From Candidatus Falkowiibacteriota bacterium (GTDB lineage: Bacteria; Patescibacteriota; Patescibacteriia; Patescibacteriales; VMTK01): a stretch of 53,566 nt of DNA. Under the pieces are notes generated by a model. The model was given only the letters and a program-made list of their open reading frames with translations. It was not told the origin of the DNA and searched no databases. The translations under genes and the position numbers were made by a program. Below are positions 3,332 to 48,660 of the stretch, in pieces. The stretch spans positions 1 to 53,566 of the forward strand of contig VMTK01000013.1 in assembly GCA_013791585.1 (NCBI GenBank), written 5' to 3'. Position 1 is the stretch's first letter; every line of letters begins with the position of its first letter.

Positions 3332-4093
3332 ATGGGCAAAATAATCGCCATTGTAAACCAAAAAGGCGGAGTCGGCAAAACCACAACCGCTGTTAATCTG
3401 GGAGCTTACTTAAGCTATTTGGGCAAGCATGTTTTGTTAGTGGATATTGATCCTCAGGCAAACGCCACTTCCGGCATGGGCATTGACCATAAAAACTTGG
3501 AACATGGGGTGTATGAAGCGCTAATCGGCCAAAAGGAAATATATGAAGTCATAAAGCGCACTTTGCAGGAAAGGTTAAAAATAGCTCCTGCCACTGTTTC
3601 TTTGGCAGGCGCCGGAATTGAGCTGGTAGGCATGGAAGAAAGGGAATTCAGATTATTAAGAATTCTGGAAAGCGTCAAAGATGAATATGATTATATAATT
3701 ATTGACGGGCCGCCTTCTTTGGGTTTGTTGACAATCAACAGTTTGGTGGCGGCTGACGAAATATTAATTCCCATCCAGAGCGAATATTACGCTTTGGAAG
3801 GCGTGGGGCAGCTGCTGGAAACAATCGGCTTGGTGCAGAATAATTTAAAGCCGGAGCTCGGGGTGATGGGAGCCGTGATCACTATGTTTGACAAGCGCAA
3901 CAGATTGTCAGCTTCCGTGATGAACGAGCTGTACCAGTATTTTCCCAACCGCGTATTCCGTTCAATCATCCCCAGGAGCGTGCGGCTGGCAGAGGCGCCG
4001 AGTTTTGGCAGGTCTATTCTTCATTATGATCCAAAATCAAAAGGCGGGCGGGCTTATGAGAAATTAGCAAGAGAGATTATTAATTTGGAATAA
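3332..4093 (+). CDS. parA: Chromosome-partitioning ATPase ParA
   Basis: 253 residues from the ATG at 3332 (MGKIIAIVNQKGGVGKTT), the normal start for the family; an upstream in-frame ATG would add a non-conserved tail made of the direct repeats. Deviant Walker A KGGVGKTT near residue 11-18, Walker A' DIDPQ near 40, Walker B IIDGPPSLG near 110. ParA/Soj ATPases drive segregation of ParB-parS complexes at the nucleoid. parB follows after 75 bp, the usual order. Confidence 0.95.
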   Translation: MGKIIAIVNQKGGVGKTTTAVNLGAYLSYLGKHVLLVDIDPQANATSGMGIDHKNLEHGVYEALIGQKEIYEVIKRTLQERLKIAPATVSLAGAGIELVGMEEREFRLLRILESVKDEYDYIIIDGPPSLGLLTINSLVAADEILIPIQSEYYALEGVGQLLETIGLVQNNLKPELGVMGAVITMFDKRNRLSASVMNELYQYFPNRVFRSIIPRSVRLAEAPSFGRSILHYDPKSKGGRAYEKLAREIINLE

Positions 4094-8959: not shown

Positions 8960-9280
8960 ATGCTGACACTTAATAGCGACCCAACTTTAAAGGATTTGCA
9001 AGATTACGTAAGGCGGCTGGAAGCGGAACGCAATTTTGACAAAGAGGATGTTTTGCAAAAATGTTTATTATTAGGAGAAGAAGTGGGCGAGCTTTATAAA
9101 GCGATTAGAAAGAAAAGCAAGATTATTAAGGTTGATCATAAATCCAGCTTTGGCTCAGTTGAGGAAGAATTGGCAGATATAATAATTTATATCTGCGCAA
9201 TTGCAAATCGTTTTAATATTGATTTAGAACAGTCTTTTAGGGAAAAGGAGGAGTTGAACAAAAAAAGGGCATGGGAATAG
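8960..9280 (+). CDS. MazG-like nucleotide pyrophosphohydrolase
   Basis: 106 residues. All-alpha NTP-PPase (MazG superfamily) motif: KCLLLGEEVGELYKAIRK (EExxE, about 35-40), then SVEEELADIIIYICAIANRF (ExxD, about 73-77). Such enzymes hydrolyse NTPs or dNTPs to the monophosphate and PPi, often for house-cleaning or stress. It is probably the third gene of the radical SAM unit and ends at the terminator at 9317. Confidence 0.85.
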   Translation: MLTLNSDPTLKDLQDYVRRLEAERNFDKEDVLQKCLLLGEEVGELYKAIRKKSKIIKVDHKSSFGSVEEELADIIIYICAIANRFNIDLEQSFREKEELNKKRAWE

Positions 9281-26529: not shown

Positions 26530-26614
26530 CCCCGCACCTTTTAGACAGTTTATTTTTTTAAGATTTCTATCACGAAAATATTTTATAAAAATGCTCTGCC
26601 TAAAAGGTGCGGGG
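26530..26614. mobile_element. Palindromic MITE-like element, family P1 (copy 1)
   Basis: The ends accccgcacctttt-agacag (26529-26548) and the near-perfect complement at 26596-26615 enclose about 47 bp of AT-rich sequence. The ends match those of the GIY-YIG element at 42841-43151. It sits in the loop of the inverted repeat upstream of livK2; no direct target duplication is evident here (TTTA left, TAAA right). Confidence 0.75.
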
Positions 26615-41746: not shown

Positions 41747-42394
41747 ATGATCAACAAAAAACAATTTAAATTTTTAGCGGTTTTCATAGTATGCGCTATG
41801 GCCGTGATTGCCGGATATATTATTTTTGTGCAAGCGCAATTTGTCACAGAAGATTTTACCGCGGAAACTAATATTGCCGCGACATGGCAGACAACAGTGG
41901 CCACCACTACAGGGCAAGTTACCTTGGAATTAAGGGATTGCGATGTTGGAGCCGGGGTATGGTTTTGCAATGCGTCCACGACTTGCGCTAATTATTTAGA
42001 GGACGGTGATTATATTCTGCTGGCGCAGGCGGATTTGGCTACCACAAAACAATGGAAAACTGCCAACACTGCCTGCAATCGGCCTGAATGCGGGGCGGAC
42101 GGAAGCCAGAATGGAGATAATTTAGTTGCCGATAATACCGTAAATTTTGCCACTAACGGCTATACTGCGCGGAACGCTTGCAAGGATATTGGAGGACGAT
42201 TGCCGACAAAAGATGAACTTAATTGTATATACACTAATAAAGTTACTTTTGGAGATAGTTTTGCGGCCGGCGGTTACTGGTCATCTACAGAGTACTCGGC
42301 GACGAGCGCGTGGAAACAGAATTTCACTACAGGCAATCAGACCAACAACAATAAGACGAACAGCCATTATGTCCGCTGTGTCCGCGGGTGGTAG
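41747..42394 (+). CDS. DGR 1 variable protein (C-type-lectin-like, DUF1566-type)
   Basis: 215 residues. N-terminal membrane or signal segment at about 7-30 (FLAVFIVCAMAVIAGYIIFV). A threonine/alanine-rich stretch and cysteine-bearing region (RDCDVGAGVWFCNASTTC) follow. The C-terminal lectin-fold end GGRLPTKDELNCIYTN...YWSSTEYSATSAWKQNF...YVRCVRGW is the FGE/DUF1566-like scaffold used by DGRs. The last 44 codons are the variable repeat. It is probably displayed at the cell surface for ligand binding. Confidence 0.9.
   Translation: MINKKQFKFLAVFIVCAMAVIAGYIIFVQAQFVTEDFTAETNIAATWQTTVATTTGQVTLELRDCDVGAGVWFCNASTTCANYLEDGDYILLAQADLATTKQWKTANTACNRPECGADGSQNGDNLVADNTVNFATNGYTARNACKDIGGRLPTKDELNCIYTNKVTFGDSFAAGGYWSSTEYSATSAWKQNFTTGNQTNNNKTNSHYVRCVRGW
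42259..42389 (+). other. DGR 1 variable repeat (VR1)
   Basis: 131 bp at the 3' end of the target gene, matching the template repeat once the inserted element is removed. Differences: seven at template adenines, all amino-acid-changing, and four at non-adenines, all silent (TCG/TCA, TCC/TCT, ACG/ACA, GCT/GCG). Confidence 0.92.
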
Positions 42395-42803: not shown

Positions 42804-42840
42804 TTTTGCGGACGGCAATTACTGGTCGTCCACGGAGAAC

Positions 42841-43151
42841 CCCCGCACCTTTTAAGCAGAGATTATATATATGCATTATGTATACATATTAAAAAGTTTA
42901 AAGGATTTGAAGTTATATATTGGTTACACTAATAATCTTGTTCAACGTTTAAAAAAGCATAATAATGGCGAAGTAGTATCCACTAAACACAGACGACCAT
43001 TGGTAATTGTATATTGCGAAGCATATCGTACAGAAAAAGAAGCACGCGAAAGAGAAAGACAATTAAAACAATATGGAAAGGCATATGCGCAGCTAAAAAG
43101 AAGGATAGGAAGAAGCATAAATAGCGTTAATACTGCTTAAAAGGTGCGGGG
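42841..43151 (+). mobile_element. GIY-YIG mobile element (family P1, coding copy) inside TR1
   Basis: 311 bp. Perfect 19-bp terminal inverted repeats ccccgcaccttttaagcag, flanked by GAAC on both sides (42837-42840 and 43152-43155). It contains one gene, a GIY-YIG nuclease whose stop lies in the right repeat. Short non-coding relatives at 26530-26614 and 48036-48109 share the ccccgcacctttt ends. The nuclease may be the mobility enzyme; this is inference. Confidence 0.88.
42871..43140 (+). CDS. GIY-YIG nuclease carried by the inserted element
   Basis: 89 residues. GIY half HYVYILKSLKDLKLYIGYTN (about 2-21), catalytic arginine in NLVQRLKKHNNG (R26), glutamate in RTEKEARERERQLKQYGKAY (about 56-66). 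It is the compact UPF0213/YhbQ-like single-domain type. ATG lies 30 bp inside the left terminal repeat; the last codons NTA-stop run into the right repeat. These nucleases nick or cut DNA; here it probably acts on the element ends or target. Confidence 0.92.
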   Translation: MHYVYILKSLKDLKLYIGYTNNLVQRLKKHNNGEVVSTKHRRPLVIVYCEAYRTEKEARERERQLKQYGKAYAQLKRRIGRSINSVNTA

Positions 43152-43266
43152 GAACTCGGCTACGAACGCGTGGAAACAGAATTTCACTACAGGCAATCAG
43201 AACAACAACAATAAGACGAACAGCAATTATGTCCGCTGTGTCCGCGGGTAATTAATTTTAGCCAAA

Positions 43267-43310
43267 ATTTTTTGTTAGGATGGGTTTTAAAACCCATCCT
43301 AACAAAAAAT
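43267..43310. repeat. 44-bp perfect palindrome after TR1
   Basis: attttttgttaggatgggtt at the left mirrors perfectly around tttt|aaaa to the right arm. It starts 17 nt after TR1 and ends 11 nt before the avd start. Likely extruded as a cruciform or RNA hairpin that delimits the TR transcript. Confidence 0.9.
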
Positions 43311-43321
43311 GCGAAAAAGCC

Positions 43322-43687
43322 ATGCTTAACTCCAAACAGCTTCCTTTGTATCACAAATCATATCTGTTAATAAAATATTTCTATCGCTTAGTAAAAAATT
43401 TTCCCAAACATTATAAATACACTCTTGGCCAAAGCATGATTGATTTGAGCTGGCAATGCTTGGACTTGGTTTTGGCGGCCAATGTTCTGCCAAACAAAGA
43501 TAAATACTATAAAATTCTGGAATTAAGCGCTGTTTTTGACAAATTAAAACTTAGAATCAGGATGACTCAGGAAATAGGATTAATTTCTTCCAAGCAATTT
43601 GCCCATCTGCAAGTTAATTATATTGCCGCAATCGGCGAGATGATCGGCGGCTGGCTAAAATGGGCTTTAAATTGTCGGGGGGGGTAA
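43322..43687 (+). CDS. avd: DGR accessory variability determinant (Avd-like, S23-type four-helix bundle)
   Basis: 121 residues from ATG 43322 (MLNSKQLPLYHKSYLLIKYF); an upstream ATG at 43280 lies within the palindrome. LIKYFYRLVKNFPKHYKYTL then GQSMIDLSWQCLDLVLAANV and LKLRIRMTQEIGLISSKQF are typical of bAvd/S23 proteins, which form pentameric barrels that bind RT and TR RNA. The gene ends on a run of eight G (43677-43684), coding RGG just before the stop. RT1 follows after 39 nt. Confidence 0.88.
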   Translation: MLNSKQLPLYHKSYLLIKYFYRLVKNFPKHYKYTLGQSMIDLSWQCLDLVLAANVLPNKDKYYKILELSAVFDKLKLRIRMTQEIGLISSKQFAHLQVNYIAAIGEMIGGWLKWALNCRGG

Positions 43688-43726
43688 TTGCCGATTTACG
43701 ATTGCCGATTTAAGATTTGCGAATTT

Positions 43727-45019
43727 ATGGATGTTTTTACATACAACAATTTATACCGCGCTTATCTGGATTGCCGGAAAACGAAGCGTAAAACCGCTAA
43801 TGCTTTAAAATTTGAAATTGAGCTTGAGAATAATTTACAACTATTGTTAGCAGAGCTTAAAAATAAAGAATATAAGCCGGGCCGTTCAATTTGCTTTGTG
43901 GTAACCAAGCCCGTGCCGCGCGAAATATTCGCGGCGGACTTCAGGGATAGAGTTGTCCACCATCTGTTAATCAGGGAAATTATAAAATACGGCGAGCGAA
44001 ATTTCATTTTTGATTCTTACGCCTGCCGAGAGGACAAAGGAACGCATAAAGCGATTGCTAAATTGAAAAAGTTTATCAGGCAAATTACAAATCTCTCCGC
44101 CTCGTCGCAGTCCTCTCCGAGAGACTGCGACGAGGCGGAGGATGCGAGTTTGCAAAACGGCTCCACAGCCCCGATTGCGATCGGGGACTATGAAGCCATC
44201 ACCCGGGTATTTTACGCGCAACTGGATATAAAAGGATTTTTTATGGCTATTGATCAGCGGATTTTGTATAAATTGGTTGAAAAATTGGTTGAAAAGCAAA
44301 ACAGGCCGCGGCAATGGAAGCAGGATGTTCTATGGCTGGCCGGAGTAATTATTTTCCATAGGCCGGCGGAAAATTATATAACGAAAGGGGATCGTTCTTT
44401 GTTTAATTTAATACCGCCGCATAAATCATTGCGCTGCCAGCCCAAAGGCAGGGGACTGCCAATCGGCAATTACACCTCCCAGTTTTTTGCCAATCTTTAT
44501 TTGAATGAATTGGATCAATTTGTAAAAAGAGAATTAAAATGCAAGCATTATATTCGCTATGTGGATGATTTTATTTTGCTATATGCGGATAAAGAAAAGT
44601 TAAAATATTTTAAAGGCGGAATTAATGCTTTTTTAAAAGACAAATTAAGATTGGAATTAAATTCAAATAAAATTAAAATTCAATCTTTGGATAAAGGAAT
44701 AGATTTTTTAGGGTATTTTATAAAGCCGGATTACGCTTTAATAAGGCAAAAAGTGGTTAATCGTTTGAAAAATAAGTTGTCTTGTGTAAATTTTGCGGAT
44801 GTTAATAGTTTAAATGAATTGGAATATTTAAATAAAAATTTAGCAATGATCAATTCTTATTACGGACACTTTAAGCATGCGGAGAGTTTTAATTTAAGAA
44901 AAAATATTTATAATAATCATTTAGGAGAGTTAAAAGGAGCGTTTTTACTTAAAGAAGGATTTGTTTCGCTTAAGATAAAGCGGCAAAATAAAAAACAGCC
45001 GGCTTGGGCTGGCTGTTGA
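43727..45019 (+). CDS. DGR 1 reverse transcriptase
   Basis: 430 residues from ATG 43727 (MDVFTYNNLYRAYLDCRKTK). RT motifs: FRDRVVHHLLIREI; motif A AQLDIKGFFMAID; motif B GLPIGNYTSQFFANLYLNEL (the I/LGN..SQ form of DGR enzymes); motif C YIRYVDDFILL; then DFLGYFIKPD. About 35 extra residues (SASSQSSPRDCDEAEDASLQ...) lie between FIRQIT and the motif A strand, encoded by a P2 palindrome. It copies TR RNA with adenine mutagenesis into VR cDNA. Confidence 0.93.
   Translation: MDVFTYNNLYRAYLDCRKTKRKTANALKFEIELENNLQLLLAELKNKEYKPGRSICFVVTKPVPREIFAADFRDRVVHHLLIREIIKYGERNFIFDSYACREDKGTHKAIAKLKKFIRQITNLSASSQSSPRDCDEAEDASLQNGSTAPIAIGDYEAITRVFYAQLDIKGFFMAIDQRILYKLVEKLVEKQNRPRQWKQDVLWLAGVIIFHRPAENYITKGDRSLFNLIPPHKSLRCQPKGRGLPIGNYTSQFFANLYLNELDQFVKRELKCKHYIRYVDDFILLYADKEKLKYFKGGINAFLKDKLRLELNSNKIKIQSLDKGIDFLGYFIKPDYALIRQKVVNRLKNKLSCVNFADVNSLNELEYLNKNLAMINSYYGHFKHAESFNLRKNIYNNHLGELKGAFLLKEGFVSLKIKRQNKKQPAWAGC
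44097..44138. repeat. P2 palindrome inserted in frame in RT1
   Basis: Perfect 16-bp arms ccgcctcgtcgcagtc (44097-44112) and gactgcgacgaggcgg (44123-44138). Same family as 14431, 22959 and 23061, and read in the same frame as at 22959 (DCDEAE / DCGEAE). Confidence 0.85.
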
Positions 45020-47631: not shown

Positions 47632-48660
47632 TCAGCGGGACAGGCAGGAATTAGGGATATTTATTATTGCCAGTCTGTTCAATCCCGATAAGTCTTTTTT
47701 TATTTGGATTTTTGCTTTAGGCAGAATTTTTTTTATCAACTGTTTTAGCATAACCGTTTGACGCGGGTCAATCTCGCATAACGCATAACGCATAACGTAT
47801 AACGTATTTAATTTTTTGATTTGTTTAAATAATTCGCGGTAATATTTTAATCCATCATGACCTGCATTTAATGCGATTTTTGGCTCACATTGTATTGAAG
47901 GTGAATTTTTTATTTGAGCAGGCGTTAGATACGGAAGATTGGCTAAAATAATGAATTTTGAATTTTGAATTTTGAATTTTGGTTTTTTTATTAATTTTAA
48001 AAATGGTTCAAGCAGATTGCCATGGAGGAATTTTACCCCGCACCTTTGGGGCAGTTTTTTATTGTCGTTTACATTATTTTTATTATAGCTCTGCCCCAAA
48101 GGTGCGGGGTTTATTTGTTTATCAACATGATGCAGTTTTGCGTTTTTTTTGGCGATTGCGAGCGCGGGTTTTGAAATATCCGTAGCCAGATAGCGGATTT
48201 CGGATTTCGGATTTCGGATTTTATTTTTTAATAATTTTGCGAGGGATATTATTATACATCCGCTGCCAGTCCCAACATCTATTAACGTTATGCGTTGCGC
48301 GCCTGCCCCGTTTTGCAAAGCATTTGCGGGGTTATGCGCTGCGCGAAGAGCTTCATCAACCATCAACTCAGTTTCCGGGCGGGGGACAAGCACATTTTTG
48401 TTGACAAAAAAATTAAGCCCGTAGAATTCCTTATGGCCGGTTATATAGGCGATTGGTTCGCCCTTTATCCTTCGCGTAACGCATAACGCGTAACGCGCAA
48501 CGATTGATTTGCTTAATTTATAATTTGGATAAGTATATATATATTCTCGTGATTTTTTTAAAATATGAGATAATAAAATTTCCGCGTCAAGGCGCGGAGT
48601 TGGTATTTTTTCTTGTTTTAATTTTTCTACAGCATTAATTAATACTTGACTTATAGCCAT
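47632..48660 (-). CDS. prmC: Release-factor glutamine methyltransferase PrmC with repeat insertions
   Basis: 342 residues against about 280 usually. N-terminal helical domain (PTPRLDAEILLSHIL), GEPIAYITGHKEFYGLNFFV then LVPRPETE, SAM motif IDVGTGSGCIIISLAK, active NLPY (for NPPY) in ILANLPYLTP. Extra stretches against the family: ARYALCVT, AHNPANALQNGAGAQR, a 26-codon P1 insertion, KPKFKIQNSKF and LNTLYVMRYALCEI, each encoded by short repeats. It methylates the GGQ glutamine of RF1 (prfA lies nearby). All insertions keep the frame, so the protein may work. Confidence 0.9.
   Translation of the reverse strand: MAISQVLINAVEKLKQEKIPTPRLDAEILLSHILKKSREYIYTYPNYKLSKSIVARYALCVTRRIKGEPIAYITGHKEFYGLNFFVNKNVLVPRPETELMVDEALRAAHNPANALQNGAGAQRITLIDVGTGSGCIIISLAKLLKNKIRNPKSEIRYLATDISKPALAIAKKNAKLHHVDKQINPAPLGQSYNKNNVNDNKKLPQRCGVKFLHGNLLEPFLKLIKKPKFKIQNSKFIILANLPYLTPAQIKNSPSIQCEPKIALNAGHDGLKYYRELFKQIKKLNTLYVMRYALCEIDPRQTVMLKQLIKKILPKAKIQIKKDLSGLNRLAIINIPNSCLSR
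48036..48109. mobile_element. Palindromic MITE-like element, family P1 (copy 3), inside prmC
   Basis: 20-bp perfect arms accccgcacctttggggcag (48035-48054) and its complement (48091-48110). TTTA flanks both sides (48032-48035 and 48110-48113). 74 bp plus the 4-bp duplication adds 78 bp, exactly 26 codons, giving NPAPLGQSYNKNNVNDNKKL then PQRCGV in PrmC. Confidence 0.88.

Follow-up and report, generated by a model that had tools for sequence, protein, structure and literature searches.

A 311-bp unit with a single small GIY-YIG gene lies inside the template repeat of a DGR locus. The question raised by this locus is whether the unit is a mobile element and, if so, what moves it. The window analysed here is the whole stretch of 53,566 nucleotides (contig VMTK01000013.1, Candidatus Falkowiibacteriota bacterium). 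The unit and the DGR locus comprise the following features, where TIR is terminal inverted repeat, TSD is target-site duplication, TR is template repeat and VR is variable repeat.

41747..42394, plus strand: DGR target gene, Lcl_C domain, VR at its 3′ end
42259..42389, plus strand: DGR variable repeat, 131 bp, unbroken counterpart of the template
42804..42840, plus strand: DGR template repeat, 5′ part, 37 bp
42837..42840, unstranded: GAAC target-site duplication, left, following the family-wide 4-bp rule
42841..43151, plus strand: GIY-YIG TIR element, 311 bp, with perfect 19-bp TIRs, one ORF and GAAC on each side
42841..42859, plus strand: left TIR CCCCGCACCTTTTAAGCAG; pairing in the family ends sharply at bp 19
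42871..43140, plus strand: predicted GIY-YIG nuclease gene, 89 aa, UPF0213/Slx1-like, catalytic residues intact
43133..43151, minus strand: right TIR CTGCTTAAAAGGTGCGGGG, a perfect match to the left end over 19 bp
43152..43155, unstranded: GAAC target-site duplication, right, following the family-wide 4-bp rule
43156..43249, plus strand: DGR template repeat, 3′ part, 94 bp
43280..43687, plus strand: DGR accessory protein gene bAvd (PF22296; NF033474 just under the cut-off)
43688..45019, plus strand: DGR reverse transcriptase gene (RVT_1), open through two other palindromic repeats

The 19-bp perfect TIRs, the GAAC on both sides and the single GIY-YIG gene agree to the base with the preliminary description of this DNA. 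The product of 42871-43140, the sole ORF of the unit, belongs to the GIY-YIG family (PF01541, E 4.7e-17), and the profile search of this protein gave no match to a DDE family or to Y1 HUH. The TR halves of 37 and 94 bp add up to the VR length of 131 bp, as described earlier, and the rejoined halves align to the VR without gaps. Taken alone, the ends of the window unit can also be read as 20-bp TIRs, with the flanking C and G paired, and a 2-bp AA duplication. We prefer the 4-bp reading because exact 4-bp duplications flank 20 of the 36 copies of the family in the source genome, whereas 2000 permutations gave a mean of 2.8 and a maximum of 8. This family-wide rule also upholds the earlier proposal of a precise insertion with a 4-bp target duplication. 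From sequence comparison, the window unit is likely to be an autonomous member of a family of minimal DNA transposons that is widespread in CPR and is probably moved by its own Slx1-like GIY-YIG nuclease acting on hairpin ends. We lean, less firmly, towards a new class of transposable element, which would have a Slx1-like GIY-YIG protein as its sole dedicated enzyme, base-paired ends, hairpin units of 26–27 bp, a 4-bp duplication and a CPR-wide range, and would be the source of rRNA insertions.

Copies of the element in the source genome

When up to one mismatch is allowed, the 13-bp TIR end CCCCGCACCTTTT occurs 78 times in the 1.34-Mb source genome and the reversed control pattern once. TIRs bound 36 copies, two with the gene (311 and 296 bp) and 34 short ones without it. 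The short copies span 59–149 bp, mostly 74–86 bp, a range that includes one nested compound and one composite. They share the ends and the 4-bp TSDs of the GIY-YIG copy, while their middles are mostly unrelated from copy to copy. Judged by these shared features, they are MITE-like, being gene-less with the TIRs and TSD of the parent. Two of them are found in the window.

26530..26614, unstranded: short copy, 85 bp, same ends, no ORF, TA on both sides, palindromic flanks
48036..48109, unstranded: short copy, 74 bp, same ends, no ORF, duplication TTTA

Compared position by position, the flanks of the 36 copies match in 31, 27, 24 and 28 cases within the four bases and in 1–11 cases outside them. 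The duplicated word is mostly TNNA, with T first in 16 of 20 and A last in 19 of 20. The GAAC of the window is an outlier to this pattern, yet it follows the 4-bp length rule. A palindromic target preference, prompted by the copy at 26530 and by the rRNA hairpin tips described below, was rejected, as flank complementarity is at chance (124 versus 118.4 over 35 sites). Contig C48 contains a third copy of the gene; its left end is preserved, but an IS3-like element interrupts the copy. The right end at C3:134-166 bears the matching arm AAGCAT and adjoins a similar IS end; it is probably the other half of this interrupted copy.

Empty sites, nested and composite copies

Empty sites and 4-bp duplications, suggested earlier as a check, were found, and in two cases the missing length equals the insert plus 4 bp. 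In the nested copy at C42:3908-4056, excision of the inner 83 bp with one CAGA leaves an outer element of 62 bp, and this restored element matches an uninterrupted sibling at C44:8186 in 57 of 62 positions. The genomes of the sister species G107 and G108 share a ~95% alignable stretch that differs by exactly 31 bp; G107 has the 27-bp hairpin CCCCCACACCAAAATTTGGTGTGGGGG and 4 bp (AATT/TATT), both absent from G108. The DGR locus is the third case, with the VR serving as the unbroken counterpart. The composite at C44:19912-20014 consists of an outer left end and a whole inner copy, with TGGA on both sides. It moved as one unit, so any suitable pair of ends is usable.

Many other 27-bp palindromes of G107 and G108 (L298, L304, L310, L316, L299, L305) have common flanks, CCTTCCAGAATA / CCCGGYGG, as if they were inserted into repeated host sequence or amplified along with it.

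Distribution among CPR genomes

Within the order, 58 of 111 genomes have related GIY-YIG genes, and such genes also occur across many other CPR lineages. A TIR score of at least 14 tight around the gene was found at 45 of 172 GIY-YIG loci (26%), compared with 0.27% of 3363 displaced windows within the same loci. A few high scorers were unrelated palindromes, and L097, L234, L201 and L218 (palindrome pairs or N runs) were discarded. Most gene-bearing units are ~284–320 bp long, with a GIY-YIG gene of 80–90 aa and near-perfect ends of 14–21 bp that usually start with CCC. The end types vary and include CCCCGCACCTTTTAAGC, CCCCCACACTAATTAAG, CCCGGTAGTGAAATTTC, CCCGCCCAAATTTTTGG and ATTCACCCCGTGAAATAA. 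An exact 4-bp TSD is seen at 17 of 50 TIR-bounded gene loci (permuted mean 2.4, maximum 9); some TIR-bounded copies have no clean duplication, and the ATTCACCCCGTGAAATAA-ended subtype shows none. The expectation that small GIY-YIG genes in other CPR genomes would be bounded by these or related ends is borne out by the 45 loci. The more general suggestion of a compact mobile element class in CPR is supported as well, with the addition that most copies are gene-less short derivatives and that the ends apparently matter as a base-paired hairpin.

Detectable TIRs are absent from about three quarters of the related GIY-YIG genes at the 172 loci, which means that this element is not to be equated with the entire protein family. 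The TIR-bounded state clusters on the protein tree (16 changes versus 41.6 shuffled), and the protein of the window sits in a group of 27, of which 25 are TIR-bounded. End similarity rises with protein identity (r 0.42; null maximum 0.16 in 5000 shuffles). Since TIRs and gene are physically linked, such correlated divergence is expected even for a passenger gene, and we keep it as consistent evidence only.

Short CCCGCACC copies occur in 6 of the 111 genomes, all six with GIY-YIG matches, yet in G002, G029 and G102, which have such copies, no matching TIR-bounded gene was found. Short CCCCCACAC copies occur in only three (G008, G107 and G108), the same three whose retrieved GIY-YIG elements bear CCCCCACAC ends; these are not three independent events, because G107 and G108 are sister species. 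With a strict pattern, no short copies with CCCGCCCAAATTTT ends were found in the 111 genomes.

The GIY-YIG protein and its role

The protein of the element is a predicted nuclease of the GIY-YIG superfamily and is UPF0213/Slx1-like. The catalytic motif Tyr, Tyr-x-Gly, Arg, Glu is present: Y5, Y16, G18, R26 and E62 are conserved in all or nearly all of 41 sequences. Y16, G18, H30 and E62 are invariant and R26 is nearly so. The predicted fold is closest to UPF0213 and then Slx1, with I-TevI a weaker match, and 1zg2 is the best match both by sequence and by fold. This model, with a pLDDT of 95.6, was built with an alignment; the single-sequence model reached a pLDDT of only 49.8. Slx1 is a branched-DNA nuclease. 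Pairwise dN/dS values of 0.07–0.31 indicate purifying selection on a gene carried by multi-copy, widely scattered elements.

The main rival explanation accepts a mobile element but makes the GIY-YIG gene a passenger or helper; an unrelated transposase encoded elsewhere would move the ends in trans. No GIY-YIG nuclease is known to act as a transposase, the fixed 4-bp duplications resemble DDE chemistry, and linkage by itself yields a correlation between TIR and gene. The Tsy transposon, moreover, relies on tyrosine recombinases, and its GIY-YIG gene is a dispensable accessory (PMC10293859). However, every TIR-bounded unit examined, over many TIR types, has GIY-YIG as its sole gene, which extends to the family what had been proposed for the window unit as a transposon-like unit with one protein. 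No TIR pair in the draft source genome encloses another transposase gene or a transposase-sized ORF, and no CCCCCACAC pair in three relatives encloses such an ORF. The purifying selection on the gene also argues against a passenger, and units of 26–27 bp should leave no room for an ordinary synapsis between two duplex ends. Mobilisation in trans is therefore unlikely, though it is the strongest of the alternatives. We infer that the GIY-YIG enzyme is the catalyst of movement.

Hairpin ends and proposed mechanism

Arm positions 14–19 vary among copies yet stay paired, the two arms changing in concert (176 of 204; permuted mean 108, maximum 132). The pairing halts after position 19, with position 20 paired in 1 of 34 against 12 expected. 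The minimal units are only 26–27 bp long. Base-paired ends are indicated by the arm covariation, these minimal units and the Slx1-like predicted fold. As a separate observation, in 23 of the 27 copies with 19-bp arms the base at position 20 is repeated across the middle (A..A or T..T), which makes a 1-bp direct repeat around it.

In the mechanism that we propose, the nuclease would recognize the base-paired ends as a hairpin or cruciform and cut at the C-tract ends. The target is a loosely specified 4-bp site, mostly TNNA in the source genome and here GAAC within the DGR template, at which the enzyme may make or exploit a 4-nt staggered break. The hairpin would then be joined in, and gap filling would produce the 4-bp duplication. 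Gene-less derivatives of 26–130 bp with the same ends are mobile too. Strand joining could be carried out by the GIY-YIG enzyme or by host replication and repair; to our knowledge, GIY-YIG enzymes act as hydrolytic nucleases and not as strand transferases.

Insertions in rRNA, tRNA and other genes

Four TIR-bounded units lie within 16S genes. Two of them (L072 and L109) are located directly after GCATGCAAGTCGA near the 16S 5′ end, and the other two (L114 and L183) are at the tip of the 3′-terminal long helix. Uninterrupted relatives have short natural hairpins at those same points, so that the hairpin of the element itself lengthens the rRNA stem, and the outermost paired bases of the 16S copies may belong to the rRNA. 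Because flank complementarity is at chance over the 35 sites, the rRNA hairpin tips are more likely tolerated sites. GIY-YIG-encoding insertions that are neither group I nor group II introns nor homing have been reported in CPR rRNA genes (PMC11270868); the text of that report mentions no inverted repeats and offers no mechanism for them. Compared by this text, the TIR element probably accounts for the reported insertions. Copies of the element also interrupt a tRNA-Leu gene.

A free-standing homing endonuclease gene or an intron-like unit, which cuts one cognate site and is copied in by recombination, is very improbable here. GIY-YIG is a homing-endonuclease family, and two 16S insertions of different lineages do share one position while two others share another. 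However, the sharing can be explained by tolerance, since both positions lie at variable hairpin tips. Dozens of unrelated sites in one genome have 4-bp duplications with only TNNA in common, and neither the nested copies nor the gene-less copies with ends alone fit homing. A transposable element with loose target choice remains the preferred reading.

Several other genes are associated with element ends. tRNA genes are entangled with them at G000:C29:1-310, C43:1-330 and C71 near 9000-9180, and at G102:C1:97067-97167 (L241); tandem ~102-bp tRNA-Leu units are broken at GGTAGA by an element end, and one tRNA-Ala is wholly enclosed by two inverted ends. Two old short copies of 65 bp lie in frame within ORFs that resemble riboflavin kinase and riboflavin synthase (G000:C9:2721-2785 and 3788-3852; L036 522-586 and 1589-1653). 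Each adds ~20 codons and no stop, which recalls the Rickettsia palindromic elements. In L073, an RNase P RNA gene annotated at 931-1476 is overlapped at its end by a bounded GIY-YIG unit (1442-1748).

The split DGR template

The split repeat is assigned as the DGR template because the bAvd and reverse transcriptase genes lie downstream. TR and VR differ at 11 positions; 7 of these are a template A, a bias that is modest and based on few positions. Three of the remaining four differences fall in the 37-bp half on the far side of the insert, as would be expected if homing no longer reached this half, again with small numbers. No second intact TR was found in the genome, and its single VR does not have the element. 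The suggestion that DGR homing could carry the element into surface-protein genes gains no support, since the sole VR is free of it and the other GIY-YIG copies are elsewhere.

It may be argued that the split is an assembly or recombination artefact, or that the repeat, instead of being a TR, is a second VR in decay. Just 7 of the 11 mismatches are at A, and the DGR may be in decay, given the other in-frame palindromic repeats of its reverse transcriptase gene. However, the ends of the insert and its TSD rule are common to 35 other copies, both halves align to the VR without gaps, and the repeat is placed upstream of Avd and reverse transcriptase like a TR and is A-rich (A at 40 of 131). Such an origin is quite improbable; we prefer a template interrupted by a transposon. 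Static hairpins, terminators or REP-like, that flank GIY-YIG genes by chance with nothing mobile are hardly credible, as the discarded L097, L234 and L201 do resemble pairs of unrelated palindromes around a gene but the family has exact TSDs, empty sites, nested and composite insertions, and interrupts a DGR template, 16S rRNA genes and a tRNA-Leu gene.

The two other palindromes in frame in the DGR reverse transcriptase ORF lie at 44092-44143 and 44159-44197. One has CTCCGCCTCGTCGCAGTC arms, and the second (GGCTCCACAGCCCC...GGGGACTATGAAGCC) belongs to another family, with 18 pattern matches in the source genome.

Relation to known systems

Known DNA transposons rely on DDE, HUH, serine, tyrosine or Cas1-type enzymes. 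The element resembles DDE insertion sequences and MITEs in its TIRs, fixed-length target duplication, autonomous and gene-less copies and nested insertions. It differs from them in encoding a single protein, an 89-aa GIY-YIG nuclease, in the small size of its full copies (only ~300 bp) and of its minimal units (26–27 bp), and in the covariation of the end arms; no DDE gene is found with these ends. With REP/REPIN sequences and their RAYT (Y1 HUH) it has in common many short palindromic units, a low-copy gene bordered by the same palindromes and a hairpin that likely matters; here, in contrast, the protein is GIY-YIG instead of Y1 HUH and insertion duplicates 4 bp of the target. GIY-YIG homing endonucleases (I-TevI, Seg/free-standing) share the catalytic domain family and the selfish character, whereas the present element duplicates many unrelated 4-bp sites instead of using one cognate site and its protein has no separate DNA-binding domain. 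UPF0213 (YhbQ-like) proteins and Slx1 are treated as cellular, but the gene of the present element is enclosed by inverted ends, occurs in several copies and is mobile. The GIY-YIG insertions of CPR rRNA genes (PMC11270868) are matched by the four TIR-bounded units at 16S hairpin positions. The Tsy transposon also has a GIY-YIG nuclease gene within a transposon; there, two tyrosine recombinases do the work, GIY-YIG is dispensable and there are no inverted ends (PMC10293859).

In the open-access literature searched, no earlier description of a GIY-YIG TIR element family was found, and this hairpin-ended family is apparently both widespread and undescribed. If our reading is correct, a ~300-bp element with GIY-YIG alone would add an enzyme class to those of known transposons and would be among the smallest autonomous mobile elements. 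The small GIY-YIG genes that are frequent in CPR genomes would then have a mobile role, and the unexplained GIY-YIG insertions in CPR rRNA genes would have a possible origin. Whether a GIY-YIG enzyme is able to carry out transposition on hairpin ends is a directly testable question, and a compact protein with short, simple ends is of practical interest. Palindromes of the CTGAACTTGTTTCAG type flank GIY-YIG genes in two Flavobacteriaceae, Kordia (L170) and Tamlana (L162, a named strain), and match 37 and 19 times across the respective genomes. These palindromes are abundant and their link to the GIY-YIG gene is only a candidate one, but they may provide an experimentally accessible relative.
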